DNA of 64,000 bases from Natronolimnobius sp. AArcel1 (GTDB lineage: Archaea; Halobacteriota; Halobacteria; Halobacteriales; Natrialbaceae): positions 434,001 to 498,000 of the forward strand of contig NZ_JAAKXY010000005.1 in NCBI RefSeq assembly GCF_011043775.1, given 5' to 3'. Position numbers and translations under genes: made by a program. Under the pieces are notes generated by a model. It made no database searches. It was given only the letters and a program-made list of their open reading frames with translations, and had not been told where the DNA came from. Positions 39,409 through 54,092 of this stretch are shown here, in pieces (the first letter of the stretch is position 1; every line of letters begins with the position of its first letter).

Positions 39409-40743
39409 ATGTTACTCTCTGGAACCGTCATCGCCGATGCCTCGACCGTCATCGAAGACGGTAGCATCGTCGTTGATGGCTCGCGTATCGAGGCAGTCGG
39501 GCCTCGAGAGACGCTTCGCCAGCGCTATCCCAACCTCGAGGAACGCACAGTCGATATTCTTCTCCCGGGGCTCGTCGGCGGCCATCTCCACTCGGTACAG
39601 AGTCTCGGCCGTGGCATCGCCGACGATCACGAACTGCTCGATTGGCTGTTCGAGTACGTGTTGCCGATGGAAGCCTCGCTCACCGCAGACGAGATGGAAA
39701 TCGCCGCGAAGTTGGGCTACCTCGAGATGATCGAGAGCGGGACAACGACCTGTATCGATCACCTCTCGGTCAATCACGCCGAACGGGCGTTCGAAGCAGC
39801 TGGCGAAATCGGCATTCGCGGCGTGTTGGGCAAGGTATTGATGGACCAACGCGCCCCCGAGGGACTGCTCGAGTCGACCGAAGACGCACTCGCTGAAAGC
39901 GAACAGCTCATTCAGGAGTACCATGGGGCGTTCGACGATCGCATCCGGTATGCGGTGACACCCCGATTTGCGGTCTCCTGTACTGAAAACTGTCTCCGCG
40001 GTGCTCGAGAGTTGGCAGACACCTATGACGGCGTTCGGATCCACACGCATGCAAGCGAAAATCGCAGTGAGATCGAAACCGTCGAAGGTGATACCGGCTT
40101 GCGAAACATCCACTGGCTCGACGAGGTCGGCCTTACCGGCGAAGATGTGGTGCTCGCACATTGCGTCTGGACTGACGAAAGCGAACGGGAGGTACTTGCA
40201 GAGACGGGTACCCACGTCACGCACTGCCCATCTTCGAACATGAAACTCGCAAGCGGGATTGCGCCGGTCGTTGACTATCTCGAGCGCGGGATCAACGTCG
40301 CACTGGGCAACGATGGCCCGCCGTGTAACAACACGCTCGATCCGTTCACCGAGATGCGCCAGGGGAGTCTCCTACAGAAAGTCGACCGACTCAACCCGGT
40401 TGCAGCCTCCGCAAGCGAACTACTCGAGATGGCGACACTGAACGGGGCACGCGCGGCTGGCTTCGACAAACTCGGCGCGATCCGTGAGGGATGGCGAGCC
40501 GATATCATCGGCATCGATACCGATCATACCCGGGCAACACCGCTGCATGATCCGCTCTCGCATCTCGTCTACGGCGCCCACGGCGACGACGTCGTATTCT
40601 CGATGATCGACGGCAACGTCGTTCTCGAGGACGGCGAGATTCAGACGGTCGACGCCAACGCAATTCGGGAGGAAGCGACCGCCATTGCCGATGGTTTTGA
40701 TCTCGAGGGCCATCGGGACGCTGCCAGAAACGTTCAGCCATGA
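39409..40743 (+). CDS. Amidohydrolase, adenosine/SAH-type deaminase (ATZ/TRZ family)
   Basis: 444 residues of the metal-dependent amidohydrolase superfamily. Metal and catalytic residues are visible in GGHLHS, THASEN, AHCVW and GNDGPPCNN, matching the S-adenosylhomocysteine/5'-deoxyadenosine/methylthioadenosine deaminase and chlorohydrolase group. The reaction is probably hydrolytic deamination of a purine nucleoside or related ring in the cytoplasm; the exact substrate cannot be fixed. The ATG at 39409 starts directly at the first beta strand (LLSGTVI), and a 22-codon upstream extension is unlikely. It is a single gene. Confidence 0.9.
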   Translation: MLLSGTVIADASTVIEDGSIVVDGSRIEAVGPRETLRQRYPNLEERTVDILLPGLVGGHLHSVQSLGRGIADDHELLDWLFEYVLPMEASLTADEMEIAAKLGYLEMIESGTTTCIDHLSVNHAERAFEAAGEIGIRGVLGKVLMDQRAPEGLLESTEDALAESEQLIQEYHGAFDDRIRYAVTPRFAVSCTENCLRGARELADTYDGVRIHTHASENRSEIETVEGDTGLRNIHWLDEVGLTGEDVVLAHCVWTDESEREVLAETGTHVTHCPSSNMKLASGIAPVVDYLERGINVALGNDGPPCNNTLDPFTEMRQGSLLQKVDRLNPVAASASELLEMATLNGARAAGFDKLGAIREGWRADIIGIDTDHTRATPLHDPLSHLVYGAHGDDVVFSMIDGNVVLEDGEIQTVDANAIREEATAIADGFDLEGHRDAARNVQP

Positions 40744-41055
40744 TTGTCGGCGGGAAGGAAACCATGTGCGGAAAACGATGAAGGTGTTGCTGCCCTGTAC
40801 AATAGGTGCCTATTTCCTAAAAGAAGGCTATTTTACAACAGCAGGCTCTTTCGCCTATCAAATTTGCTGATGAGTGAGTACTACCGAGCGATGAGACACT
40901 GATTCGTCCGGGAAACAGGACAAGACACCTCAAAAACCGAACGTATATCGTGACATATATAGTCCACAACCAATAAGAAAATCTAGACGAGACAACCACG
41001 CACAGGAGTCCACTCCCTTGTTGCACCAGTTCAAGTCGACAAGGAGACGAAATTC
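40744..41055. other. Intergenic, AT-rich
   Basis: About 310 bases before the zinc-ribbon regulator gene. Nothing was recognised apart from AAGGAG at 41041-41046, a plausible ribosome-binding site nine bases before the ATG at 41056. Confidence 0.45.
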
Positions 41056-42024
41056 ATGACAGACGATCTCTCCGTGAGTTTACCGGATGATGCCTTTGGG
41101 GTACTGAGTCATGATCTTCGACTGGCTGTCTTAGACGTTCTGCAACGGGCACAAAAGGCCGATACGTTCGCCGCCGAACCCGTTGCCTATGCTGAACTCG
41201 CTATGTTGGTCAGTGAACGCCTCGAGAAGGACTTTACGCGAGATTCTGGCAATTTCAATTACCATCTTCGAACACTACGAGACGCGGGATTCATCCGTCG
41301 GGTTGATGGGGGATATCGCATCCGTCAGGCAGGCGTTCGGGTTGTTCGCGCCGTCAGAGCAGGAAACATTTCTAATGAGACACAGTTCGAGTCGGTTCCG
41401 ATCAACGAGCCCTGTCCGTACTGCAACGCAGAGTCAACAATTTCGTTAGACGATGATTGGCTGTTTATCCGCTGTTCGTCCTGCGATGGGGCCTTCGCAC
41501 AGGACGAAACGCTTCCTAGTGGAACACTGGCTGGATTCGAAGTATCGCCAGCTAGCGTCCAGGGTCGTGACCCAATCGAGACATTCAAAGTTGCGTTTCA
41601 ACTCGGCCAACAAGTGCACCGATCGTTCGCTGCAGGTATTTGTCCAGAGTGTGGTGGCACAACCACGACAGAAATTCTCGAGACCTGCCTCGAGCATGAA
41701 TTGACAGAAGAACACGTCTGTGATGCCTGTGGACGAACGACGGATGAGTTCGTTGCCGTTTCGTGTGATGTGTGTAATCGATCGCTGATGACGTTTCCGG
41801 CAATCGTCGTTGCGACTGATCCACATGTCATCGCAACTATGTACGAACGTGGGAGAGACGTCACTGATCAGACGTGGGGAGCACTCTCTCGACCACCCGA
41901 TTGGCCGTGTCACCACGTTCAGACTGAGCCACCAATTCTCGAGTATGTGATCCCTGTACCTGACGGAGAGGATATCCGCGTACAACTCGATATGTCACTA
42001 ACGGTCCGTATCATAAATCCATGA
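41056..42024 (+). CDS. ArsR-like winged-helix protein with zinc-ribbon C-terminal domain
   Basis: 322 residues. The N-terminal winged helix (about 10-95) has GVLSHDLRLAVLDVL and FNYHLRTLRDAGFI. The C-terminal half carries several cysteine pairs (CPYC, CSSC, CPEC, CDAC, CDVC) that form zinc ribbons. This layout is common in haloarchaeal ArsR-type regulators of unknown ligand. A GGAG precedes the ATG by nine bases. It is followed, 17 bases after its end, by a convergent acetyltransferase gene. The target genes are unknown. Confidence 0.87.
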   Translation: MTDDLSVSLPDDAFGVLSHDLRLAVLDVLQRAQKADTFAAEPVAYAELAMLVSERLEKDFTRDSGNFNYHLRTLRDAGFIRRVDGGYRIRQAGVRVVRAVRAGNISNETQFESVPINEPCPYCNAESTISLDDDWLFIRCSSCDGAFAQDETLPSGTLAGFEVSPASVQGRDPIETFKVAFQLGQQVHRSFAAGICPECGGTTTTEILETCLEHELTEEHVCDACGRTTDEFVAVSCDVCNRSLMTFPAIVVATDPHVIATMYERGRDVTDQTWGALSRPPDWPCHHVQTEPPILEYVIPVPDGEDIRVQLDMSLTVRIINP

Positions 42025-42041
42025 GCGGGGAAGGCCGACAG

Positions 42042-43094
42042 TCAGAACAACGGCGCAATTGGATCGTTCCGAACCGGTGCACCCGCAATCGCAACAGAGA
42101 GACTCATTTCGCCAACACCTGCCTCAAGCTCGAGGACATCGCCGAGCGGTCCCCGTGGATCGTAATTCAGCATAAGGCGATTCGCGCCGCCAGGATTCGC
42201 CCGAAGCGTTTCCCAGAGTGTCCGTGCGGCGTCTTCGTGTCCGGATGCATACCAAAGGTCAGAGAGCATCGTCATTCGAAGTTCCTTGCTGTCGGGAATC
42301 GCCGGTGGCAGTGAGTCTGCCTCCTCGAGTTCCGGTGGCAGTGAATCAACAACAAGAGACATCACTTTGTGCATGTCCGAGGCGAAAACGCCTGCAACGA
42401 CCTCGTCGTCGACGGTCGCAACGACGTAGCGATGAATCGGTTCCTCGATCGGCGAATCACCAAGCCGGTCTGTCAGGCCCGAAGCTGTGTACGGTCGGTA
42501 CACGTCCGTCTCGGAGTAGAATTCGTTTGACTGTTCGACGGCAACTGCTTGCTCATCCAGAGTTCCGTCGTGAATAGCAATGCGGTCGGTGGTCGGACCC
42601 TCCTCGAGCGGTGAGGCGGGATACATGACGAACTCGGACTCGAGCGAATCGGCCCACCATTCAGCGACCGCTTCTGAGGGATCGTTTCCGTGCTGGATAT
42701 TCGAGAACACAACGCAGTCTTCGCCCAGTTGTTCTCGGGCGAACTCGATACGTTGTGTGACAATCCGTTTGGCTAGTCCCTGCCCGCGGAAATCAGGATG
42801 GACTGCAAGCGCGTTTAATAGTGCACTTGGCCGTAGTTCATCGTCGAAGCGCGCTTCGGTAAATGAAACGAAACCCACTCCTGCGAGTCGCCCATCATCG
42901 GTTTCGGCAACAAATCCCGTCGTATCAGGTCGTAACCCAGCGTAGACGTCGTATGGATCGTACGCAAACCGTGGTGCAAAACTCACGGCCCCTTCGTCAG
43001 GACTGTTCGTAAAGAGTCGTCCAATCGCCTCTCCATCGGCAGGTCGTGCGGTTCGGATCTGCACGGGTGTCGCTGCATCGCTTTTGGTTGTCAT
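42042..43094 (-). CDS. GNAT-family N-acetyltransferase
   Basis: 350 residues. A GNAT acetyl-CoA-binding domain occupies about 10-150, with motif A at HPDFRGQGLAKRIVTQR. A second, degenerate GNAT-like half follows (HRYVVATVDDEVVAGVFASDMHKVM), as in fused double-GNAT proteins. It transfers an acetyl group to an unknown amine or protein. No partner gene is evident, and a SipW-linked cluster begins downstream on the same strand after 150 bases, separated by an AT-rich gap. Confidence 0.87.
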   Translation of the reverse strand: MTTKSDAATPVQIRTARPADGEAIGRLFTNSPDEGAVSFAPRFAYDPYDVYAGLRPDTTGFVAETDDGRLAGVGFVSFTEARFDDELRPSALLNALAVHPDFRGQGLAKRIVTQRIEFAREQLGEDCVVFSNIQHGNDPSEAVAEWWADSLESEFVMYPASPLEEGPTTDRIAIHDGTLDEQAVAVEQSNEFYSETDVYRPYTASGLTDRLGDSPIEEPIHRYVVATVDDEVVAGVFASDMHKVMSLVVDSLPPELEEADSLPPAIPDSKELRMTMLSDLWYASGHEDAARTLWETLRANPGGANRLMLNYDPRGPLGDVLELEAGVGEMSLSVAIAGAPVRNDPIAPLF

Positions 43095-43247
43095 TTTCGA
43101 ACAGCCTCGTCTCTTCCTGTGCCTGCACTATTATAAACTCTTCTGAACGTATATTAAATTGATACATACACATACATTGTGAGAATCAGTTTGGCTCTGA
43201 CATCGGTATCAAGAGTAGAGTATATTGCTCTAAGGAGTTATTCAGCG

Positions 43248-43682
43248 TTAATAATCTCTATTGGCATCGGTGTGGATGTCACTTTCATTGTCAGATCCGT
43301 TTTCTGTGACGTTATCGTCTTCACTATCATCTTGATCGTTGTCAATACGTTCGCTCGTATTCTCGACAGAATCACCACCGAAATCGGTATTCGTATTTTC
43401 ATCCTCGAGTACGTCCTTTTCAGAAGCGGTCTCGTTGTCTGTACTCGATGCGGTCTCGTTCTCACTCGTATCTGCTGACTCCTCGAGATCGGACGGACCG
43501 ACAGCAGGCTGATTGGTAGCTGCGGTTGTGACTGTCGAGACAGAATCGTCGTCAGTTGTGGTTGTCGAAAACTCGCTGGTTACCTGTTCAGAGTCAGAGA
43601 ACATGGCAAGGGTTCCTGCGCCACTGAAAACAGCGCTCCCAATAATTATCACTGCAATGACGGCGACCAGACGACGACTCAT
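43248..43682 (-). CDS. Exported acidic protein with SipW-type signal peptide
   Basis: 144 residues. The N-terminus RRLVAVIAVIIIGSAVFSGAGTLAMFSDSEQ matches the SipW-dependent signal seen in TasA/camelysin-type proteins. The rest is Asp/Glu/Ser/Thr/Asn-rich low-complexity sequence without a fold signature, probably disordered outside the cell. It is the last gene of the sipW unit: its ATG overlaps the signal peptidase stop by four bases. It could be a minor subunit or tether of the structure built by the larger proteins upstream. Confidence 0.8.
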   Translation of the reverse strand: MSRRLVAVIAVIIIGSAVFSGAGTLAMFSDSEQVTSEFSTTTTDDDSVSTVTTAATNQPAVGPSDLEESADTSENETASSTDNETASEKDVLEDENTNTDFGGDSVENTSERIDNDQDDSEDDNVTENGSDNESDIHTDANRDY

Positions 43683-44791
43683 TGGACTACCTCCTCGTTA
43701 TCAACGGATTGCTGGCTAGTGTTGTCTGCAGTCTCGGTAGTGACACCAGCGCCCGAAGGTGTCGAATCGGTTGTCTGAGAGCCTTCCCAGATGAACGCGG
43801 ATTCATCCGGTGTGCTAATGGGCCCAGATTCAGCGTCCTGTACAGCGACCTCGTCAGTTGAAGTGGAGTCTCCCTCATCTCGATTGAGAGCGTCGGAACC
43901 ATCTGGTAACGGACCCGAGGCACCAGCAGAGCTGCCATCTGATTCTGCGCCGCTACGTCGTGCTGCGAGCCAGATGGCACCAAGGCCAAGGAAGGAAAAA
44001 CTCGTGGCGAACGCTGCAGTGATCGCGAGTGGTGTCTGCACCAACATTGCAACGTAGATGCTGTATGGCATCACCAGAGACAGAATACCGAGTGTAAGCG
44101 TTAGATCCGCTGCATGGACGCCGACGACATCGTCCCCATCCATCCCATCAGCCGACTCGCCGTCTTGGTCACTGGAACGTGTGTGAGTCATCTCTGCGTC
44201 GGCTGCCGTTCCAGTGACCTCATCTGTGTCGTCTGTAGTGTTTGAGGCAGCTGCCGTCTCCCCCGGTGAATCAGGCGCTGTGTCGCTCGAGTCGTGTTCG
44301 ACGGACTGGAACAGCGACCAGAGTTCCGAGAGGACGAGGAATCCGACTGGAATGCCCACGAGCAACACGATACCAAGCGGTGTCGAGCCAAACTGGATGA
44401 CGTGACCGATAAGCGGAATCGTCAGGATAACCGACCCGAGGAGGTTATCTTCAGGAACGAGTTCCGTATCTGGCTCAGGATTTGCATCACCCTGCGTTTC
44501 GTACGCCACATTGCCGTTTTGTTCCTGGACATCGATCACGCGGTGTGTCACCGGCGTTGCCTCGTCGGCTTCGGCGTAGGTGATGACATCGCCGTCAGTG
44601 ATGGCTTCTGGGTCAGTCTCATCGACAATGACGACATCACCAGGCGAGAGTTCCGGCTCCATGCTGCCCGAGAGGACAACAAATCCGTGATCGGCACCAA
44701 TTACACCAGGAACGGCGTACACGATGAACGGTACAACAAGCGTGATCAACAGGACGATACCACCGATGTGAGCTAGTTTTCGGATATTCAT
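43679..44791 (-). CDS. sipW: SipW-type signal peptidase I with C-terminal extension
   Basis: 370 residues. The peptidase domain occupies about 1-165, with an N-terminal membrane helix, catalytic Ser43 in SGSMEP and the archaeal/SipW-type His83 in THRVIDV in place of Lys. A later Asp-rich segment (GDANPEPD) and a second helix complete it. A disordered, Thr/Ser/Asp-rich linker and two further helices (about 230-285) follow, then another acidic tail, making it longer than most. It overlaps both neighbours by four bases. Its likely role is to cleave the SipW-type signal peptides of the exported proteins encoded beside it. Confidence 0.92.
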   Translation of the reverse strand: MNIRKLAHIGGIVLLITLVVPFIVYAVPGVIGADHGFVVLSGSMEPELSPGDVVIVDETDPEAITDGDVITYAEADEATPVTHRVIDVQEQNGNVAYETQGDANPEPDTELVPEDNLLGSVILTIPLIGHVIQFGSTPLGIVLLVGIPVGFLVLSELWSLFQSVEHDSSDTAPDSPGETAAASNTTDDTDEVTGTAADAEMTHTRSSDQDGESADGMDGDDVVGVHAADLTLTLGILSLVMPYSIYVAMLVQTPLAITAAFATSFSFLGLGAIWLAARRSGAESDGSSAGASGPLPDGSDALNRDEGDSTSTDEVAVQDAESGPISTPDESAFIWEGSQTTDSTPSGAGVTTETADNTSQQSVDNEEVVQ

Positions 44792-45885
44792 CGGGAATCA
44801 CCAGCCTCCGCAGGTGGGCAGACGTAAACCGAGAGGTTGCTAATCGCCGGCCGCTCGCTATCGTCGACGGAATCAGGGTCAGTTTTTGCGTCGCCATGGG
44901 CAGCACAGACCGACTGTCGTGTCCGGGTGAGCGGCGGCGACACGTCGTAGCTTGCAACCCGTGAGTCAGGATCGCTTGGCGGGTCCATTGGCCGTCCACC
45001 ACCGACCGTCACTCGACAGATTGGTGGGGCACCGTTCTCGTCGCCATCTTCTAAGAGCCGAATGCGTGAACACACCGTCTCAGCACCAGCCCCCTCTCCC
45101 TTATTCGTCACCCCCAACACCTCGAGTTGGTACTCGTGATCAACTGTAAATCTGTCATCTAATTCGTCGAATTCGTATACGCGCGGCTCCAGCTGATCGC
45201 CTTCAACATCGAGTTTGCCCAGTTCGACACAGTCAGGACACTTGAGTTCCGGACAGTCCTCAGTTGGGTCGAACGGGTTCTTGAGGTCAGCAGGCTGTGA
45301 GCGACATTGCTGAGCAAACAGGCGAAACGAAAAGTCTGCCTGTGCGTTGACGGTCCACTCCGCGTCGGCCGGTAGTTCGTACTCAAGTTCCAACGAAAGA
45401 TCATCGTCTGCGGAGAAGCAGGTGTCTTCGCTCTGATCATCGAGATGGACGCCTCCACTGAATGTTCGACGGAGCGCAGACAGCGAGCCGGAGTCACCGT
45501 CCGTTGGGAACAACTGGGTTTCCTCACCGTTGCGAACAAATACGACGCTGACCTCGAGTGCATCAGCAAGCGGGTCGACGGTAGATGGACAGGCTGTTTT
45601 GAGCCAGAGGTGTGATGGATTTCCGTCAAGTGTCAGCGAAAATGTTTCGGAGTCTCGGTCGCCAGGTTCGATATCACTGAACGAGACAGTAAGTTCGTCA
45701 TCAGTACTGTTACACCTCGAGCAGTCAATTTCAACCGAGACCTCACCCGCCTGAATCGTTGCTGAATTGCGCTCAGAGTGTGCGAGGCGGGCAGCAGTAA
45801 CACCAGCGGTCGCACCAAGGGCGCCGGCACCGGCAACGGCTCCGAGCAGTTGTCGGCGAGTCGGTTCGGTAGATCGGTTTGTCAT
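44788..45885 (-). CDS. SipW-dependent exported protein
   Basis: 365 residues. The N-terminus has twin Arg (TRRQLLGAVAGAGALGATAGV) suggesting Tat export, then a TasA-like mature start (NSATIQAGEVSVEIDC). The middle has paired cysteines, and the segment FSFRLFAQQCRSQ matches a motif repeated in the neighbouring exported proteins. The last 130 residues form a separate Cys-containing acidic domain without a known fold. It is the first gene of the unit ending with sipW and the small acidic protein, all with four-base overlaps. An extracellular structural or surface protein is inferred. Confidence 0.85.
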   Translation of the reverse strand: MTNRSTEPTRRQLLGAVAGAGALGATAGVTAARLAHSERNSATIQAGEVSVEIDCSRCNSTDDELTVSFSDIEPGDRDSETFSLTLDGNPSHLWLKTACPSTVDPLADALEVSVVFVRNGEETQLFPTDGDSGSLSALRRTFSGGVHLDDQSEDTCFSADDDLSLELEYELPADAEWTVNAQADFSFRLFAQQCRSQPADLKNPFDPTEDCPELKCPDCVELGKLDVEGDQLEPRVYEFDELDDRFTVDHEYQLEVLGVTNKGEGAGAETVCSRIRLLEDGDENGAPPICRVTVGGGRPMDPPSDPDSRVASYDVSPPLTRTRQSVCAAHGDAKTDPDSVDDSERPAISNLSVYVCPPAEAGDSR

Positions 45886-46218
45886 GAGTCACACTCTGCG
45901 GTTGGCGGGTTCGTTCCAGGCCAGTCGACCACTCGGTGGAGAGACGATCATGGTCTCATCCTGTTTTCGTCGCTCGTTCAATCGGTACGGAAGCACGGAC
46001 GTTTCAACTGAGAGGCCTGGAATACTGTGTTGGCTCACAGACGGACAACTCATAAGCATACAGTGTGTACCGGGTCGAACACCGACCAACAAGCATCGCT
46101 TACCGGCTTTCAAGCATGTGCTGTTGGACCGCGCCGGCGTGTGAAACTGGAGTCCCCACGGTATTGAACCCCGTTCAGACCTGGTTGGGAAGTCGTGAAG
46201 TATCATTGTCAGTCGTCG
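45886..46218. other. Intergenic within the SipW cluster
   Basis: About 330 bases upstream of the sipW unit and downstream of the next exported-protein gene. A 105-codon frame on the minus strand shows no coding signature. The promoter of the sipW unit should lie here, but no clear TATA box was found. Confidence 0.4.
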
Positions 46219-46914
46219 TTAGCACTGTGTGGCATCAAAGGAGAGATCAAACTCAAGAGAGTCTCCCTGTGCCGCGTTGATGTTCGGTTGATCCGGCGGG
46301 AACGACCAGCCAAACGTGACTGTAACGCCGTCGCCACCAGACTCGAGACAGCGTCCCCCAAGCCGTTCAGGAGTTCCAGTAAGGTCGATACCATCACGGA
46401 ATACGGCCGCAAGATCCTCGAGCGTGCCATCAGCCTCAGGGTGGACGAGTGATTCACCAAGGTCTTGCTCGCCGTTATCACCGCCGAACGCGGAGATTCC
46501 CAAGAGTCCGCCGTCATACCAGACAGACCCGTTGATAAACGCTTGCAACGGTGAGGACTCGCCCGAAGCAAGATCGAACGCCATCGACGGCACGACTGCA
46601 AGACTCGAGTCCTCACTCTCGAGGCGGAGCCGAACACTTAGCGAGCCCGAATCACCTGGCAAGACGTTCCCCACAGAAATTCCCGGCTCGCTCGACGAGG
46701 CTGTGCCATCGCTGTCGTCCAGTGGCGTCAGCGTTGCGCCGTTGTACGTTTCTCGCCAGTCAGCAACGAGTCCATCAACGCTGTCGGTTGCTATCGCCGT
46801 GGTTCTGGTGAACGACTGACTACGGTCAGTCGTCAGGGCAACGCTGGCGGTCGTGATCGAGACGCCGCCAACCAGCCCAGCGAGTACCGTTCGTCGTGGG
46901 ATTCGGTCAGGCAT
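46219..46914 (-). CDS. SipW-dependent exported protein, short form
   Basis: 231 residues from the ATG at 46914 (MPDRIPRRTVLAGLVGG), which keeps a Tat-like twin-Arg signal. The mature chain has a beta-rich, Ser/Gly/Asp-rich composition. It ends with QGDSLEFDLSFDATQC, the same motif that closes the related proteins at 47030 and 48468. No known enzyme motif is present. The frame runs further upstream to 46983 through a tRNA-like T-arm sequence and was not used. A secreted beta-sandwich subunit is inferred. Confidence 0.82.
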   Translation of the reverse strand: MPDRIPRRTVLAGLVGGVSITTASVALTTDRSQSFTRTTAIATDSVDGLVADWRETYNGATLTPLDDSDGTASSSEPGISVGNVLPGDSGSLSVRLRLESEDSSLAVVPSMAFDLASGESSPLQAFINGSVWYDGGLLGISAFGGDNGEQDLGESLVHPEADGTLEDLAAVFRDGIDLTGTPERLGGRCLESGGDGVTVTFGWSFPPDQPNINAAQGDSLEFDLSFDATQC

Positions 46915-46954
46915 ATCTTGTCGAGAGCGTACGCACGGTGTACGAAAACCCGCC

Positions 46955-46971
46955 GGCGGAATCGAACCGCC
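46955..46971 (-). other. tRNA-like T-arm fragment
   Basis: GGCGG-TTCGATT-CCGCC on the minus strand matches a tRNA T-arm (5-bp stem, TTCRANY loop). It is followed by GGCGGGT as a possible 3' acceptor strand, but no 5' acceptor or anticodon arm was found upstream. It may be an attachment-site remnant or a chance match. Confidence 0.3.
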
Positions 46972-47029
46972 GAATGCCAGCACGGGTCAGGGTGTGTGAA
47001 TGACAATGAACAATGGGCCCTGGCCGCCG

Positions 47030-48436
47030 TTAGACTCCGGATGGACCAGACGGCAGGGTGTTGTGGCGACACTGTTCGGTGTAGAATCCAAGATCAAAGC
47101 TCAGCGATCGCCCCTGCAACTCGTTGATATCCTCGAGGTGCTCTGGTGTCGTCGTTGGGAGACACCATTTGAAGGCGACACAGAACGTCTCATCCGGCGG
47201 GAAACACGGTGGGATAACGTCATCATCAGGGCAGTACCGGAACTCGATGACGTTAATCTCGTCTTCGTTGTCGTTCTCTGGAATACGAACATTGGTCTGT
47301 CCGGTCGTACAGCCATCGAACGTCACGAGGGTGTCCCCATCCTCGTTGATCACGAGTTCTCCAAACCCGAAGTCATCACTCGAGTCGACAATATCCCAGT
47401 CGAATCGCGTGATTTCCGAGAGATCATCCGCGTCTGCATCGACGGCCGTCCGCTCGAGTCCGTCCGATGTTGGGATCTGTAAGTCCGACAGGACAACATC
47501 GAACCAGACCGAACCATCGACAGAGACGAGTTTGAGTTCAATCTCAACTTCATCGACACCATCGTCGTTCTCGTCTCGAATCTCTAGGACCTCTCCGTTC
47601 TCGATGTGGACACCGTTCTCTTCGAACGTAATCGGCTCGAGTGGTTGTGGGTCAGTTGGATCACCACCAGCATCGACCCCACTGCCGTCGTAGACGTCTG
47701 GGTTGAGGAATCGTCCGTCGGGTGAGAGACGGTCCTCGAGGAACGTCTTGAGATCGGTTGTCTCGATAAAGACGACATCGCCGTCGTCCTCGAGGAGTGT
47801 GTTCGTACACCCGAGATCGTACCAGGCTTGGACTTGGATGGCTTCTGCTAACTCCGCATCGTAGTCACCGATGTCGGCAAGCATCCAGATGTACCCAGAG
47901 TTATCGCACAGGTGGAGACTGAACGTGACCTCACCGCAGTCTCCTGGCTTCACATCGTCGAGTTCGATCAACCGCTGCTGTTCGGGTTCGACTCCGTTTG
48001 CAAAGTCAGCTGGATCCTCGAAGTTTGAAAGCGTCTCACAGGTCAGATACTCCTGAATGTTTGCGCCTTCTTCAGGATCCTCGACTTCGTCCATGTACGA
48101 CACCTCGTCCGACTGGTCAGCGAATTCCCCATCGTCAAAGGCACTGAGATCGAGCGACTGCATACCGTTGGTGTCGTGATCTGGGTGTGCGTTGACGAAC
48201 GGATACCCTGCGTCACCGTACGGTGCGTAGTGATCCTGGTTCGTCTCCGGACCGAAGTACAACTGTTGCCAGTCGATTCTGAGGTCAAGTTCGCCAGCGG
48301 TCAGTTCGTTCCCTTCGAACGACTCTTGATCACTAAAGAGCGCACTCGTCCCCAGCCCGGCCCCCGCCGACAACGCGCCGATGGCACCGATTCCAGCGAG
48401 GGCCTTGCGTCGCGTCAATGTAATTTTCTTACTCAT
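47030..48436 (-). CDS. SipW-dependent exported protein, TasA/camelysin-like, long form
   Basis: 468 residues. The N-terminus has twin Arg (LTRRKALAGIGAIG) and the SipW-type junction TSALFSDQESFEGN, then ELTAGELDLRIDW, as at the mature start of TasA/camelysin proteins. Middle segments are Asp-rich with a short cysteine-containing sheet (GDCGEVTFSLHLCDNSGYIW). The C-terminus has RSLSFDLGFYTEQCRHN. The acidic content fits calcium binding and a salt-adapted extracellular protein. It is encoded 31 bases downstream of a close relative, so the two form an operon and are probably exported together. Confidence 0.88.
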   Translation of the reverse strand: MSKKITLTRRKALAGIGAIGALSAGAGLGTSALFSDQESFEGNELTAGELDLRIDWQQLYFGPETNQDHYAPYGDAGYPFVNAHPDHDTNGMQSLDLSAFDDGEFADQSDEVSYMDEVEDPEEGANIQEYLTCETLSNFEDPADFANGVEPEQQRLIELDDVKPGDCGEVTFSLHLCDNSGYIWMLADIGDYDAELAEAIQVQAWYDLGCTNTLLEDDGDVVFIETTDLKTFLEDRLSPDGRFLNPDVYDGSGVDAGGDPTDPQPLEPITFEENGVHIENGEVLEIRDENDDGVDEVEIELKLVSVDGSVWFDVVLSDLQIPTSDGLERTAVDADADDLSEITRFDWDIVDSSDDFGFGELVINEDGDTLVTFDGCTTGQTNVRIPENDNEDEINVIEFRYCPDDDVIPPCFPPDETFCVAFKWCLPTTTPEHLEDINELQGRSLSFDLGFYTEQCRHNTLPSGPSGV

Positions 48437-48467
48437 ATGGAATCAGGATGTGAGTATCGGCGACGGG

Positions 48468-49241
48468 TTAGTCGTCGGACTCCTCGTCTCCGACCGTTGC
48501 AGCAGCACGCGCGACGAATTCTTCGAGATCGTCGTTGTGTCGCTGCTGTTCAGCGTAGAATGCCAGATCCCACTCGAGGACAGCCCCCTGCAGTTCGTTT
48601 CCGACGTCGGTCGGAATGCTCAGTTCGATGCAGAGTTCCTGTGACTCCTCGATCTCGAAGTCAGCAGCATCCCCATCCTCGTCGACGAGTAGTTCGCCGT
48701 CTGCGAGGGAATCAAGGAGGTCCGCGAGCGAGTCGTACTCCGCGATGGTCTCGTCCTCGAGCGTCACGTCGTCGACCTCCGTCGCTTCGGCGACGGTCGT
48801 GAGGTCGTCTTCGTCATCGACGTCCCAAAGGTCGTCCAGGTCGACGTTCTCGGCTTCGACGCCGTCGTAATCGCTGCTGTCAGCAGCAAGTGCGACGTAG
48901 CCGGGATTTTCGTCAACAGTAATCTCCCAGCAGAATTCGTACTCGTCACCGGGTTTGGCGTCTTCGATTTCAATCGTTTCAGTGGCCCAGAGACCGTCCC
49001 CGCCACTCACTTCATCAAAGAACATCTCGTCCGGACCGATTCCATCCTGATCAATGTCGTGGACAAGTTGTTCAACACTCAGTGCGAACTCACCGGCTGT
49101 GATCGTGTTGTCCTCAAAAGACTCCTGATCACTGAAATACGCGCTCGTTCCGATGCCTGCGCCTGCGGATGCGATACCAATACCGGCGAGGCCACCAAGG
49201 GCACGTCGCCGCGTCAGTCGAAGTTTGTTGTCGTCGGTCAT
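48468..49241 (-). CDS. SipW-dependent exported protein, TasA/camelysin-like
   Basis: 257 residues starting at 49241; a longer frame to 49391 has no signal-like N-terminus. A twin-Arg signal (LTRRRALGGLAGIG) leads to TSAYFSDQESFEDN and TITAGEFALSVE, nearly the same junction as the next gene. GDEYEFCWEITVDENPGYVAL matches the Cys-containing sheet region, and VLEWDLAFYAEQQRHN the C-terminal motif. The two cysteines of the related proteins are only partly kept. It is the first gene of the pair and faces an intergenic region shared with a winged-helix regulator. Confidence 0.88.
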   Translation of the reverse strand: MTDDNKLRLTRRRALGGLAGIGIASAGAGIGTSAYFSDQESFEDNTITAGEFALSVEQLVHDIDQDGIGPDEMFFDEVSGGDGLWATETIEIEDAKPGDEYEFCWEITVDENPGYVALAADSSDYDGVEAENVDLDDLWDVDDEDDLTTVAEATEVDDVTLEDETIAEYDSLADLLDSLADGELLVDEDGDAADFEIEESQELCIELSIPTDVGNELQGAVLEWDLAFYAEQQRHNDDLEEFVARAAATVGDEESDD

Positions 49242-49616
49242 GGTTGTAAGCCCCAAGTCGCCGGTGTTGTCGGCGGTTGGGTTGTTTTCATCCAGACCGG
49301 GTACCGGTGTAGTTATGAGCGAGCACGTCACCATCGAACGAATTGATAGAACGGTCGCCAAGATGTCGAACACTCCGTTGAGTCGCGTCAAATGGTGTAT
49401 TTGACTGACGTATGGTTCTCAACCCCACCTCCAAGAACCCGTCAATGCAGAATAAATTCTATATTTCTACTAGCTGGTGTTACTTGAAACAATATTGCTC
49501 GAGTACAAACACTGTATACGATACCGGTATGGAGTGTGTACATATGGTAGCTGGTAGCTACCCAGCATGTGGGGGATGACCGTGGATACCATGTCCACGT
49601 CGTTCAGTAGCAGACA
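49242..49616. other. Divergent promoter region of the SipW cluster
   Basis: About 375 bases between the divergent exported-protein operon and the first winged-helix/membrane regulator. It should hold both promoters. The part 49440-49540 is AT-rich. No operator repeat was recognised. Confidence 0.4.
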
Positions 49617-50156
49617 ATGTTCAACACGAACACCATTCCGGAAGAACAGATCTACGAAATACTCGCGAATCGCCGCCGGAGAGAGACCATTCGAGAGCTC
49701 ATGTACTCGAGTGAGGCAGCACCAATGTCGTTGCACCAACTATCGAAAGAGGTTGCAGCGCGGGAAACAGGGGAAACGCCTCCACCATCGAAGCTTCGCG
49801 AAAGCGTGTATAACTCGCTCCACCAGACACACCTTCCGAAGCTTCACGAACTCGGGATTGTCCAGTACGACCGCGACAGTCGAACCGTACAACTACACGA
49901 GCGTGCCCACGACGTCGACCAGTATATGGCGGTCGAAGCCGGGTATGGCATTACCTGGAGCGAAGTGTATCGAACGCTTGGCGTCCTCTCGCTGACTGTC
50001 CTATTGGCCGCATTGCTCGAGGCACCCGCCGTCTCGGCTGTCGACCCACTCTTGTGGTCTGCGGTCTTTCTGGTCGCGTTCACCATCGCCATTAGCGGAC
50101 AACTCTGGACAAACCGCTGGCAAATCGCTCGAGCGCTCCGATCGCCGACGCTCTGA
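49617..50156 (+). CDS. Winged-helix protein with two membrane helices (DUF7344-like)
   Basis: 179 residues. The N-terminal winged helix (about 8-100) contains ILANRRRRETIRELMYSS and SVYNSLHQTHLPKLHELGIVQYD, followed by two C-terminal helices (about 120-165). From memory this is the haloarchaeal DUF7344 type. A DNA-binding domain on a membrane anchor suggests a membrane-tethered regulator. It is divergent from the exported-protein operon, which is its most likely target. Three paralogues lie within 4 kb. Confidence 0.85.
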   Translation: MFNTNTIPEEQIYEILANRRRRETIRELMYSSEAAPMSLHQLSKEVAARETGETPPPSKLRESVYNSLHQTHLPKLHELGIVQYDRDSRTVQLHERAHDVDQYMAVEAGYGITWSEVYRTLGVLSLTVLLAALLEAPAVSAVDPLLWSAVFLVAFTIAISGQLWTNRWQIARALRSPTL

Positions 50157-50207
50157 TTTAATTTTTTGCGGAGAACGTCTAGGCAGACAACGGTCCCAGA
50201 TCGAGGC

Positions 50208-51083
50208 CTATTTCCGCCAGTCACTGACTGTAGTGGCCACTGTTGCCGATTCAGCTGCATCGAGATCGATCGGTACCTCAGCTATTCGAGTATCACAGTC
50301 TTCACACGTAACGACGGCAACGTCTAGAGTTCGACAACAGGACTCTACGACGCCGTGTGCCAGTGAGACCGTACCCGTACAGTTCGGGCAACGCTCGAGA
50401 AAGAATCGTAACGTCGCCAGTAACTCCATCCGGTCGTCGATAGAACGGCGGCCCCAGTCAGGGTCTCGCTGGGCGAGGACAACGGCTGCGGCGACGTCGG
50501 CTCGACAAGCCGCTTGTGACTCCCATCTCGCAATCGTGTCGCCGTCGTAGGTCGCGATAAACGACGACAGCTCCGACGAGACCGCAAGACGATCCGGAGA
50601 CAGCAACAAGATGTCAGCGATACCATGTCGAAGGTCACTCTCCGTGTTCGTACATGCCGACAGTGATTCGCGCCACGCCTGTGCGAACGACGGTGTCAAC
50701 AACAGGTCATCGACTCGAGGATCAGGTTCAATCGCCCCGATTCGACGCAACTCGACCTCCGGGTTGTACAACCCTCGAGCCGGATCGTCAGCCGTGTCAA
50801 ATATCGCAAGCAGCCAATCCGGAAGGTATCGCTTGGTCAGACGAGGTGTTCCGGGAACGAGATACCCTCGAAAATAGATGACACTCAGCGCACAGCCAAA
50901 CACGAAGAGCCCAGCAACGACACCACCAGCGGAACTGGCGCGTGCGACGACGCCAGCAATGAGGGCAATCACACCGGCCAGGAACGTATTGATGGCTGTA
51001 CAGGGAATACACCGATTGTCGCCAGTGTAGGCCGGGTTCTTGAATCGCTCGAGGAGTGTATCAAAGCGGTGTGTCCGTGGCAT
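50208..51083 (-). CDS. Membrane protein with cysteine pairs at both ends
   Basis: 291 residues; the ATG at 51083 was chosen because the extension to 51212 has no coding character. A CIPC pair near residue 25 precedes two membrane helices. A 180-residue soluble part follows with a C-terminal CPNC...CCRT...CEDCD cysteine set that could bind zinc. I do not recognise the family. It lies between two winged-helix paralogues, convergent with the first, and may belong functionally to that regulator group or to cell-surface maturation. Confidence 0.75.
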   Translation of the reverse strand: MPRTHRFDTLLERFKNPAYTGDNRCIPCTAINTFLAGVIALIAGVVARASSAGGVVAGLFVFGCALSVIYFRGYLVPGTPRLTKRYLPDWLLAIFDTADDPARGLYNPEVELRRIGAIEPDPRVDDLLLTPSFAQAWRESLSACTNTESDLRHGIADILLLSPDRLAVSSELSSFIATYDGDTIARWESQAACRADVAAAVVLAQRDPDWGRRSIDDRMELLATLRFFLERCPNCTGTVSLAHGVVESCCRTLDVAVVTCEDCDTRIAEVPIDLDAAESATVATTVSDWRK

Positions 51084-51281
51084 AGCACTCCTATTGTGGG
51101 TAGATCGGTAGTTACAGTGGCCGTACCGAGCTCCAAACCCCGTATTGTACGGAAACGCTGTCGAAATCACGGTTTGAATGGCATATTTGATCGACAGCAC
51201 AATCGATCGCACAGCTATTATGATATTAGATCACCAACAAGTAGAGTATTCTTATGCCTCATCTGGCGCGACTACTGTCAG

Positions 51282-51845
51282 ATGCAACGGGTTGGGACGG
51301 GCGGCGACGACCAGACCGAGACAGATGCACAATCGGACGCGCCCTCGAGGCCACAGATCGAAGCAACACGTGATGGAGCGTTCAAAATTCTTTCAAACCC
51401 GCGTCGACGGTATACGATCGAGTATCTGGTTCAGTCGGACGAAGAGGTCGTTCGACTGCGCGACGTTGCCGAACAGATCGCCGCCTGGGAAAACAACGTT
51501 TCGACGCAAGAGATTACCTACAAACAGCGAAAACGCGTCTACACGTCGCTCTACCAGACCCATTTGCCGAAAATGGATCGGGCAGGTGTGATCGAGTACG
51601 ATCAAAGCGCCGGCGTGATCCGGTCGACCCCAACGGTGGCAGACCTCGCAACCCACCTCAACTCGAGTACCCACGCACGCCGGTGGGAGAGGATTGGACT
51701 CCTCACTTCGTTTGGAAGTGGAATTGTGGCACTCAGTCTGACCGTGATGACAGCCGGAGGAACCGGCTCCGTAGGTGCGCTTGTGATTTCGGTCGTCTTT
51801 GTGTTGGTATCGATTGCACAGTACCGGAGTCGACGCTCAATTTGA
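51282..51845 (+). CDS. Winged-helix protein with C-terminal membrane helices (DUF7344-like)
   Basis: 187 residues. The polar N-terminal 25 residues are followed by a winged helix (ILSNPRRRYTIEYL, KQRKRVYTSLYQTHLPKMDRAGVIEYD) and two C-terminal membrane helices. It is a paralogue of the genes at 49617, 51837 and 52691. The upstream frame to 51069 lacks coding character and overlaps the divergent gene, so the ATG at 51282 is used. Its 3' end overlaps the convergent next gene by nine bases, so the two transcripts would be antisense at their ends. Confidence 0.85.
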   Translation: MQRVGTGGDDQTETDAQSDAPSRPQIEATRDGAFKILSNPRRRYTIEYLVQSDEEVVRLRDVAEQIAAWENNVSTQEITYKQRKRVYTSLYQTHLPKMDRAGVIEYDQSAGVIRSTPTVADLATHLNSSTHARRWERIGLLTSFGSGIVALSLTVMTAGGTGSVGALVISVVFVLVSIAQYRSRRSI

Positions 51846-52430
51846 GTCAGTAGAAGACACTTCGGGTGGCGGACCGCGCTGTGTCGAGCGCCCACGACAG
51901 GTCCGGTATCTGTGACACAGTCCAAGCACAACGAACAACAGTGACGTGCCAACAGCCCAGACATGACCAGAGTACCACGCAGCGGGGACGATTCCTACCC
52001 AGCCAAAGAGCGCGCCGACACAGAGCACTGCCGCAATAGCGGTATAGCGAACGCTCCAGGGAACACCAGCCCTGGGTACGACATCCATGTAGACAGTCAA
52101 CGTCTCGAGTGCATCAGTTGGACGAACAACAGTCTGGCGGGTGTCGTATCGAACGATATCCATTCGCTCGAGTTTTGGTAAGTGTGACTGGTGTAACGCG
52201 GTATACACACGCTTGCGTTGTTGTGGTGTCACAGCACTCGTTGACACCCCATTCTCCCAGGCGGCTACCTGTCGAGAAAGCGCTCGCAACGGAATGGGTT
52301 TCCCCACCTGGACGAGATGATGAAGCGTGAATCGCCGCCTCCTGTTTTGGAGGATCTGATACGCCATTTCACGGTCGACCGTCGTTTCAGACTGACCTGG
52401 CGAACGATCCCAGCCAAATTGCTGACCCAT
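51837..52430 (-). CDS. Winged-helix protein with membrane helices (DUF7344-like)
   Basis: 197 residues. The winged helix (ILQNRRRRFTLHHLV, then QQRKRVYTALHQSHLPKLERMDIVRYD) is followed by RQTVVRPTD and two membrane helices around residues 125-170. It is very close to the gene at 52691, so the pair arose by recent duplication. The tail GPPPEVSS is shared between them. The start was taken at the ATG rather than the adjacent GTG at 52433. Confidence 0.87.
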   Translation of the reverse strand: MGQQFGWDRSPGQSETTVDREMAYQILQNRRRRFTLHHLVQVGKPIPLRALSRQVAAWENGVSTSAVTPQQRKRVYTALHQSHLPKLERMDIVRYDTRQTVVRPTDALETLTVYMDVVPRAGVPWSVRYTAIAAVLCVGALFGWVGIVPAAWYSGHVWAVGTSLLFVVLGLCHRYRTCRGRSTQRGPPPEVSSTDSN

Positions 52431-52537
52431 CACACTTGGACACCGATCACTGTGGGTTCGATTCGAGTAACGCTCATTCCGTACTGACTCTTGTTAGCGA
52501 GTGGTCATAAATGACCTACCAGCATGCGGGGGTGTGC

Positions 52538-52621
52538 TATAGTAGCCACTGAACGTCAGTGCACACCCAATCGCACGAGGGCTGTGCGATTGGTGTGTAA
52601 ACAGTTTCAGTTGTTACTATA
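52538..52621. repeat. 84-bp imperfect palindromic repeat, copy 3
   Basis: Same orientation as copy 1 and same length. It has TATAGTAGCCACTGAACG at the left, TTCAGTTGTTACTATA at the right, and perfectly paired inner arms CCAATCGCAC/GTGCGATTGG. It lies between the duplicated winged-helix genes. Confidence 0.85.
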
Positions 52622-52690
52622 GGTATATCGCGAAAACCTGAACACCGCGGAGGGTACCAAGAATCCTCGTATCGACTCCGTCGTCAGTGA

Positions 52691-53290
52691 TTAGTGATGA
52701 GAAACTTCCGGCGGCGGCCCTTCGACACCGAGTCGATTGTGCCGGTCTCGATACATGTTAACAACGCCCGTCAGCATAATCACCGCCGAAATGAGAATCG
52801 CCCAAAGGTAGCCAGAAACGAGTCCGAACGGAAGGAGGCCACCCCATCCAAGAAGCGCACTGCCACCAAGCAGTGCCGCGGTTCCTGTATAGAAGACACT
52901 CCACGGAACATCATCACTTGAGACAACATCCATGTAGACAGTTAGCCTCTTGAGGTCGTCCGTAGGCTTGACAACTGTCTGGCGCGTATCGTACGTGATG
53001 AGTCCGTACCGATCCAACTTCGGTAGATGTGCCTGATGCAGAGCCGTGTAGACGCGCTTTCGCTGCTGTGGCGTTACCGCTTGCCTCGGGACATTGTTTT
53101 CCCATGCGGCAACTTGTTCTGAAAGCGGGCGAAGCGAGACCGGCCCGCCATGTTGAATCAAATAGTGGACTGTAAAGCGCCGTCGCTGATTCCCCAGAAC
53201 CTGATAGGCTATTTCGCGGTCACTCTCCGTTTCGTCTGACTGCCCCCCGGCAACAGCTGCGTGTTGTGGTCGTCCTTTTGTGAGACTCAT
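52691..53290 (-). CDS. Winged-helix protein with membrane helices (DUF7344-like)
   Basis: 199 residues, paralogue of the gene at 51837: VLGNQRRRFTVHYLIQ, QQRKRVYTALHQAHLPKLDRYGLITYD, then RQTVVKPTDDLKRLTVYMDVV and two membrane helices, closing with GPPPEVS. The two proteins differ mainly in the linker and helices. A membrane-bound transcription factor is inferred from the layout; targets are unknown. An 84-bp palindromic repeat lies downstream of it, between the two copies. Confidence 0.87.
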   Translation of the reverse strand: MSLTKGRPQHAAVAGGQSDETESDREIAYQVLGNQRRRFTVHYLIQHGGPVSLRPLSEQVAAWENNVPRQAVTPQQRKRVYTALHQAHLPKLDRYGLITYDTRQTVVKPTDDLKRLTVYMDVVSSDDVPWSVFYTGTAALLGGSALLGWGGLLPFGLVSGYLWAILISAVIMLTGVVNMYRDRHNRLGVEGPPPEVSHH

Positions 53291-53755
53291 GCTATCACCC
53301 CCACCCGAATTATGCCTGTCCAGCGAATTGACCCGCCAGCGCTGACTCGAGTCGTTCCACTGAGATGGATAATCTGATCAATTGTCGAGTCATAGTAGTT
53401 CCACAGTCCAGAGTGGCCCACTGATTAATATGTACGCGAGGTACCTCCGATTGGCTGTTGGGTTGTATTGTCATCAGATAATACTCCCTTCGGTGGGAAT
53501 TAATTAATAGTTCTGAGCAACCAGTTATGGTATTTTTTCTGACGGGAGGATTGGCAGGTTGGAAGCGAGAGAAGTGAGTATTTATAGAGATGTTTATTTA
53601 AAAATGTATATGGTTCGGGGACGAACCGCTCAATTCATCGGGATGACTACGCCGCTCAGCCGCCTCGAGAACGGAGAAGAGTGGACAAAACTGTGTGTCC
53701 AAGTCCCGTTCTGTTGGACGGGTTCCCACCACACCCGCAATTTTGAACAGTGAAA
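53291..53755. other. Intergenic, AT-rich, no gene recognised
   Basis: About 465 bases upstream of the last winged-helix gene. The section 53440-53640 is AT-rich. A 64-codon plus-strand frame at 53559 has no recognisable product. It must hold the promoter of the 52691 gene. Confidence 0.45.
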
Positions 53756-53902
53756 TTAAAGATTGTTCTCTCCTGCTGCACTACCTTCTTTGAGTTCAGA
53801 ATACGTGGAACACGATGGACAGCCATGTACCTCTCCATCAATGCCATAAACTCGAACAAAATCCGACGTCACGTGACTACCACACTCGGCACATTCAGGC
53901 AT
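53756..53902 (-). CDS. Small four-cysteine zinc-finger protein (DUF7563-like)
   Basis: 48 residues. CAEC near the start and CPSC at residues 28-31 form a compact zinc-binding site. The order MPECxxCGxHV...GEVHGCPSC matches, from memory, the haloarchaeal family DUF7563. Function is unknown; short zinc fingers of this type are proposed to bind nucleic acid or protein. Confidence 0.78.
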   Translation of the reverse strand: MPECAECGSHVTSDFVRVYGIDGEVHGCPSCSTYSELKEGSAAGENNL

Positions 53903-53975
53903 TGTCCAAGTCAATGAAGTAATAGAATATAAATTCTAGTGAGAGAGTTTGTTCTCAATATCTGTACGGGTGTTC

Positions 53976-54092
53976 TCATTCCCAGTTATCAACTGGGTCG
54001 TACTCTTCTACTGTTGTGCCCCCATTTTTCGCTAACATGGCGATTAATAGAGTGATTACAGTAAGCACAACAAGGATGGTAAGCCGTCTCAT
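53976..54092 (-). CDS. 38-residue membrane peptide
   Basis: 38 codons: RRL start, one hydrophobic helix (LTILVVLTVITLLIAML) and a short acidic tail ending DPVDNWE. The basic-hydrophobic-acidic layout is typical of small haloarchaeal membrane proteins and is hard to get by chance, but there is no family match and no ribosome-binding site. Confidence 0.45.
   Translation of the reverse strand: MRRLTILVVLTVITLLIAMLAKNGGTTVEEYDPVDNWE

Follow-up and report, generated by a model that had tools for sequence, protein, structure and literature searches.

A window of 64,000 nucleotides from the 4.56-Mb genome of Natronolimnobius sp. AArcel1, whose positions serve as coordinates throughout, carries on its minus strand a cassette of six open reading frames (ORFs), P1-P2-P3-P4-SipW-P6 (43248-49241), in which a SipW-type signal peptidase is grouped with exported proteins. 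ATGA four-base overlaps join P4 to sipW and sipW to P6. An earlier reading made from the letters alone (the sequence-only reading) had described the peptidase as overlapping two exported proteins by four bases with three more upstream, and all six ORFs are found in that arrangement. The features are as follows.

48468..49241, minus strand: P1, 257 amino acids (aa), TasA-sized fibre subunit candidate with a twin-arginine translocation (Tat)-type signal, a SipW junction and a jelly-roll core
49206..49214, minus strand: twin-arginine motif TRR of P1, with RR 20 residues ahead of GTSA in the sequence
49092..49139, minus strand: P1 residues YFSDQESFEDNTITAG, predicted N-terminus after SipW cleavage with Phe at P2'; donor-strand candidate
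47030..48436, minus strand: P2, 468 aa, larger subunit; P1-type domain with a long insertion
48293..48340, minus strand: P2 residues LFSDQESFEGNELTAG, post-cleavage donor-strand candidate from sequence and alignment
46219..46911, minus strand: P3, TasA-like domain and twin-Arg signal without a SipW junction; acceptor-only or capping subunit candidate
44788..45885, minus strand: P4, 365 aa, TasA-like domain plus a C-terminal Cys-containing domain; overlaps sipW
43679..44791, minus strand: SipW, archaeal/endoplasmic reticulum (ER)-type Ser-His-Asp signal peptidase with an extra C-terminal membrane region
43248..43682, minus strand: P6, hydrophobic signal of the general secretory (Sec) kind, junction GTLA-MFSD, short strand and acidic disordered tail; donor-only or anchor candidate

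SipW matches TIGR02228 (archaeal signal peptidase I) with 120.8 bits against a cut-off of 51.85, and 36 of 37 relatives retain Ser43, His83, Asp102 and Asp108, which bears out the earlier assignment as a SipW-type peptidase with Ser43 and His83. Its score against NF046067, the Bacillus SipW equivalog, is 105.8 bits and falls below the cut-off of 190; judged by sequence, the protein is SipW-like and outside the Bacillus equivalog. Within the whole genome, this sipW is the only gene over the TIGR02228 cut-off, Sec11-like genes elsewhere scoring far lower. The model of SipW-cognate signals, TIGR04088, has three matches in the genome, all at this locus: P1 (34.9 bits) and P2 (27.2 bits) lie over the cut-off and P6 (17.4 bits) just under the cut-off of 19, while a P6 orthologue passes it with 24.7 bits. 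Because the sole TIGR02228 gene over cut-off lies beside the sole SipW-cognate signals, the peptidase looks dedicated to its linked cargo set. The P2' residue of 125 haloarchaeal junctions is Phe in 114 and Leu in 11; Phe is also found at P2' of the TasA cleavage site (PMC10269814). Of the five substrate-like proteins originally proposed, P1, P2 and P6 are clear. The junction of P4 is degenerate in this genome and intact in many orthologues, and that of P3 is absent from 15/15 orthologues.

Natrialbaceae share the cassette as a conserved unit: the order P1/P2 copies-P3-P4-SipW-P6 recurs across genera (38 regions inspected), some regions lacking P3 or carrying extra P1/P2 copies. P2 relatives are present in 43 of 121 Natrialbaceae genomes, and among the named relatives are Salinadaptatus, Natronococcus and Natrialba, together with Natrarchaeobaculum and Natronorubrum, in which they lie on plasmids. 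In a second, smaller arrangement, a lone P2-type gene faces a DUF7344-sipW-P6-like unit from the opposite strand (L051-L054, L057, L059-L061, L066). With the genome's only SipW-cognate signals located here and the gene order conserved across genera, the locus stands well beyond chance. P6 is conserved in position and architecture; in full-cassette relatives its Sec-like signal leads into a SipW-type junction, after which come a short stretch resembling a strand (FTDxExxSGxFST) and a tail, hyperacidic or of low complexity, that contains no domain. At L056:3111-4141, sipW is seemingly split into two ORFs, by a frameshift or a sequencing error, with cargo and P6 intact.

Shared domain and predicted fold

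P1-P4 share one domain in profile-profile comparison (hhalign), with E values of 4.9e-41 for P1/P2, 4.5e-11 for P1/P3, 1.2e-16 for P1/P4 and 7.2e-20 for P2/P3. The C-terminal FDLxF..QC motif that had been noticed in four of the proteins is real and forms part of this domain, where '(F)DLxF..(E)QC' corresponds to the C-terminal strand, although P1 ends in QQ rather than QC. P2 and P4 additionally carry large insertions or further domains, and the cargo ranges in size from about 180 to 730 aa. Inside the insertion of several P2-type relatives lies a von Willebrand A (VWA) domain (PF00092, E down to 8e-23). These VWA-bearing TasA-like subunits, adhesin-like variants of the cargo, are located at L055:7081-8490, L055:5074-7005, L064:7137-9329, L049:2944-4833 and L070:6251-8023.

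AlphaFold models of mature P1 and P3, built without templates, reach a mean predicted local distance difference test (pLDDT) of 74.8 for P1, with a core of about 90, and of 74.4 for P3. In a Foldseek comparison with 350,542 PDB chains, P1 and P3 each have a single match below E 1e-3, the TasA fibre 8aur (E 4.9e-5 for P1 and 2.0e-6 for P3), with a Foldseek probability of 1.00 in each case. The second match of P3 is the bundling pilus 7ueg (E 7.8e-3, probability 0.95), followed by chaperone-usher pilus subunits, and P1 matches 7ueg weakly (E 0.07). The comparison with TasA had been proposed from the sequence; 8aur ranks first for both models, and unrelated folds, the outcome that would have told against the proposal, did not appear. 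A viral origin was dropped, as a viral structure library gave nothing below E 1e-3.

The donor strand of TasA lies at the mature N-terminus. In P1, conservation is among the highest in the protein over the 16 residues, YFSDQESFEDNTITAG, that come after the predicted cleavage site, but the model leaves them unfolded (pLDDT <50), the appearance expected of a strand that is donated to an adjoining subunit. The N-terminal segment of P3 has a different sequence and is predicted mostly folded. TasA itself assembles by donor-strand exchange, and truncation of its residues 28-38 has been tested (PMC9674648).

The B. subtilis tapA-sipW-tasA operon (PMC9674648, PMC10151520) shares with the cassette a dedicated ER/archaeal-type SipW, a P2' Phe, a jelly-roll (the top Foldseek match), a conserved strand directly after the cleavage site and an accessory gene overlapping sipW. 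In contrast to that operon with its single tasA, the haloarchaeal cassette has four TasA-like paralogues and cargo with Tat-type signals, its P6 is without the Ig (immunoglobulin) domain of TapA, and a DUF7344 regulator is linked to it. The Bacillus cereus cluster sipW-calY1-bc_1280-calY2 (PMC10151520) similarly combines one SipW with several TasA-like paralogues; a difference is that in the cargo of the present cassette PF12389 matches nothing beyond the N-terminal junction. AbpA, the subunit of Pyrobaculum calidifontis bundling pili (7ueg), is likewise an archaeal TasA-related jelly-roll protein (PMC9674648, PMC10151520), but belongs to a distant lineage and has no detectable sequence similarity to the cassette proteins. 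Among NCBIfam models, the SipW-dependent-type family TIGR04088 takes in P1, P2 and a P6 orthologue over its cut-off; the model spans 34 residues and is silent on the Tat n-region, the cassette, the domain-less P6 and the DUF7344 linkage.

Twin-arginine signals of the haloarchaeal cargo

The motif [ST]RR is present in 123 of 123 complete haloarchaeal cargo proteins with a SipW junction, a count that excludes a P6-type protein and a fragment truncated at the end of a locus, and in 122 of them it stands exactly 20 residues before the GTxA site. The set includes other families of the order. Its RR is never KR, RK or KK and is usually followed by [VIAL]L. By comparison, the motif occurs in 0/15 cargo proteins from other archaea of the same phylum (Fisher's exact p 2e-20, a figure that overstates the evidence because the sequences are related). 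What counts is how cleanly the two groups divide. An explanation by which the split arises only because the comparators are without Tat is rejected, since TatC is encoded in 9 of the 13 comparator genomes; the present genome has three PF00902 matches for TatC. The signals also differ in their hydrophobic core, which has a Kyte-Doolittle mean of 1.70 in haloarchaeal cargo versus 2.35 in the other archaea. A weaker hydrophobic core is typical of Tat signals, and the haloarchaeal cargo combines a Gly/Ala-rich, weakly hydrophobic core with an n-region of the form [ST]RRx(x)L. Recent NCBIfam fimbrial protein and adapter families, NF052520 (TafA) and NF052522 (TafE), give weak matches to haloarchaeal SipW-type cargo signals; no source publication for the TafA/TafE families was found.

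P6 provides an internal control for the Tat-type signals, as it belongs to the same operon and carries the same peptidase site. Its signal has a strongly hydrophobic core (2.47), and the twin-Arg motif is absent in nearly all relatives. The Tat export suggested earlier from twin-Arg motifs is strengthened: the motif has become fixed in the SipW cargo of haloarchaea, and the cargo examined from other archaea lacks it. The accompanying remark that Tat export followed by SipW cleavage is an unusual pairing holds relative to Bacillus, whereas in haloarchaea it is the rule. SipW cargo of B. cereus is presumed to consist of Sec substrates. Together, the signal sequences point to a lineage-wide switch of haloarchaeal SipW cargo to Tat-type signals. 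Tat is a mainstream secretion pathway in some haloarchaea (PMC3068169), so that the direction of the switch is unsurprising; what surprises is its completeness within a family of fibre subunits.

Proposed fibre assembly and its alternatives

The locus probably encodes the haloarchaeal form of a fibre system known from TasA/SipW and from archaeal bundling pili, with Tat export, SipW cleavage and strand exchange. This reading builds on features computed directly, namely the genes, the catalytic residues, the fold similarity, the conserved cassette, the Tat-type motif and the conserved regulator gene. P1, P2 and probably P4 would be jelly-roll subunits exported via Tat with the core already folded. 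SipW would cut between GTxA and xF and free an N-terminal strand (YFSDQESFEDNTITAG in P1). Donor-strand exchange would bring this strand into the adjoining subunit, and the product we infer is a surface or matrix fibre. P3, with a domain and no free strand, and P6, with a strand, no domain and a Sec-type signal, would be the end pieces: P3 is a candidate cap and P6 a candidate filament starter or membrane anchor, in roles comparable to that of TapA. TapA donates its N-terminal strand and can sit only at the filament start (PMC10151520). By analogy P6 resembles TapA in role but lies outside the TapA family, as a P6 orthologue scores 11.6 bits against TIGR04087 (TapA), far below the cut-off of 80, and P6 is without the Ig domain. 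Expression of the divergent operon would be controlled by a membrane-anchored DUF7344 regulator. A function at the surface or in adhesion is consistent with the VWA insertions.

Several results weigh against this reading or narrow it. The template modelling (TM) scores of the Foldseek matches are moderate (0.46-0.53) and indicate fold kinship, not close similarity. Profiles of the P1 and P2 families find no match among PDB sequences, so that the kinship to TasA is visible by fold comparison alone. A PF12389 search of the whole genome gave no match, which means that Pfam alone would miss the system; scored directly, P1 and P2 reach 19.7 and 17.2 bits against PF12389 (cut-off 22.5), the matched part being the N-terminal junction alone, and both are accordingly named 'TasA-like' and not filed as PF12389 members. 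The P1 alignment is shallow (19 sequences), a depth that could itself account for the unfolded N-terminus. On the export side, the Tat model TIGR01409 scores P1 at 16.0 bits, just under its cut-off of 16.7, so that the Tat claim rests on motif conservation and not on a model call, and P6 of this genome carries an N-terminal SRR, an exception among orthologues that mostly lack it.

The large insertions of P2 and P4, the VWA domains of relatives and the size range of the cargo would suit ligand binding equally well, and the proteins might be secreted, TasA-like and processed by SipW without ever polymerising, acting instead as monomeric or matrix-bound surface adhesins or binding proteins. We regard this as unlikely: the conserved unfolded strand after the cleavage site and the fibre subunits found as closest structures favour strand exchange, and a domain-less P6 beside sipW is left unexplained if nothing polymerises.

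A different reading, in which the twin-Arg merely reflects the basic n-region usual in haloarchaea and the cargo leaves through Sec, the route assumed for TasA in Bacillus, appears improbable. The sub-threshold TIGR01409 score of P1 speaks for such an export route, but 20 of 32 cargo proteins match that model at E<0.1, and RR with its preceding S/T is fixed in the 123 cargo proteins, next to a core that is Gly/Ala-rich. P6, with its hydrophobic core and mostly without RR, further argues that RR is no general n-region habit. P1 and P2 both match PF12389 (Peptidase_M73) weakly, which raises the very remote prospect that these are camelysin-type metalloproteases rather than structural proteins. 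This reading is rejected because the matches cover the signal and junction only and HExxH occurs in 0/6 cassette proteins; the name camelysin is also used for homologues of TasA, itself a structural protein (PMC10151520).

Returning to the fibre system, a more specific scenario can be put forward tentatively, although it is less likely than not: in haloarchaea a TasA-type fibre may have moved from Sec to Tat, its subunits passing through the membrane with a folded jelly-roll. The signal peptide would act as a safety catch that holds the donor strand until SipW releases it outside and so prevents polymerisation within the cell, the Sec-exported P6, a strand with no domain, and P3, a domain with no strand, would define the fibre ends, and a membrane-anchored DUF7344 protein would sense or control the process. 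It is usually assumed that fibres built by donor-strand exchange require their subunits to stay separate or unfinished until export. If true, export by the Tat route, whose substrates are folded, would solve this in a new way, and the fixation of the motif in 123 haloarchaeal cargo proteins makes Tat routing testable by one substitution. Type-IV-like pili would then be joined by another class of surface fibre in haloarchaea, one that comes with candidate genes for a starter, a cap, an adhesin (VWA) and a regulator.

TasA homologues have been described from archaea before (PMC10151520, PMC9674648), and in public databases the plasmid records of relatives already carry the label 'SipW-dependent-type'. 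The novel elements are the haloarchaeal cassette, the Tat-type signals throughout the lineage, a P6 without a domain, a P3 without a junction, subunits that bear VWA domains and the link to DUF7344. No literature on SipW in haloarchaea was found in a search of partial coverage, which is weak evidence of novelty.

A putative DUF7344 regulator and neighbouring genes

Upstream of the cassette, the window contains the following features.

49617..50156, plus strand: DUF7344 regulator, divergent from P1 and 375 bp upstream of it; PF24035, 96.4 bits
50208..51212, minus strand: conserved neighbour without a family match, with two predicted membrane segments and Cys motifs near the C-terminus; homologues lie beside the cassette in many loci
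51069-51845, plus strand; 51837-52433, minus strand; 52691-53290, minus strand: three further DUF7344 paralogues, some conserved beside relatives' cassettes

The DUF7344 protein at 49617-50156 has a winged-helix-like N-terminus, judged by inspection, and two predicted membrane helices. Nearly all operon-type relatives have a divergent DUF7344 gene upstream: a script placed it no more than about 0.5 kb from the first cargo gene in 23 of them, and inspection of coordinates added three more (L050, L056 and L074, where the script misplaced the first gene). In most small-type loci, DUF7344 is located within 12 bp of sipW. The genome encodes about 33 DUF7344 genes, and measured against that number the placement at the side of the cassette is not chance. 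Four DUF7344 genes are packed on alternating strands within 3.7 kb (window 49617-53290).

A Pfam search with the protein encoded at 50208-51212 gave no match, and a homologue of its gene is split into pieces in L041 (10683-11924). An Rfam scan of window 40000-54000 gave nothing, and a search for an archaeosortase-type PGF motif found none. Downstream of the cassette, a GNAT acetyltransferase gene and a DUF7347/DUF7351 gene (window 41056-43094) are kept near it in L039, L041 and L076, which is probably ordinary synteny.

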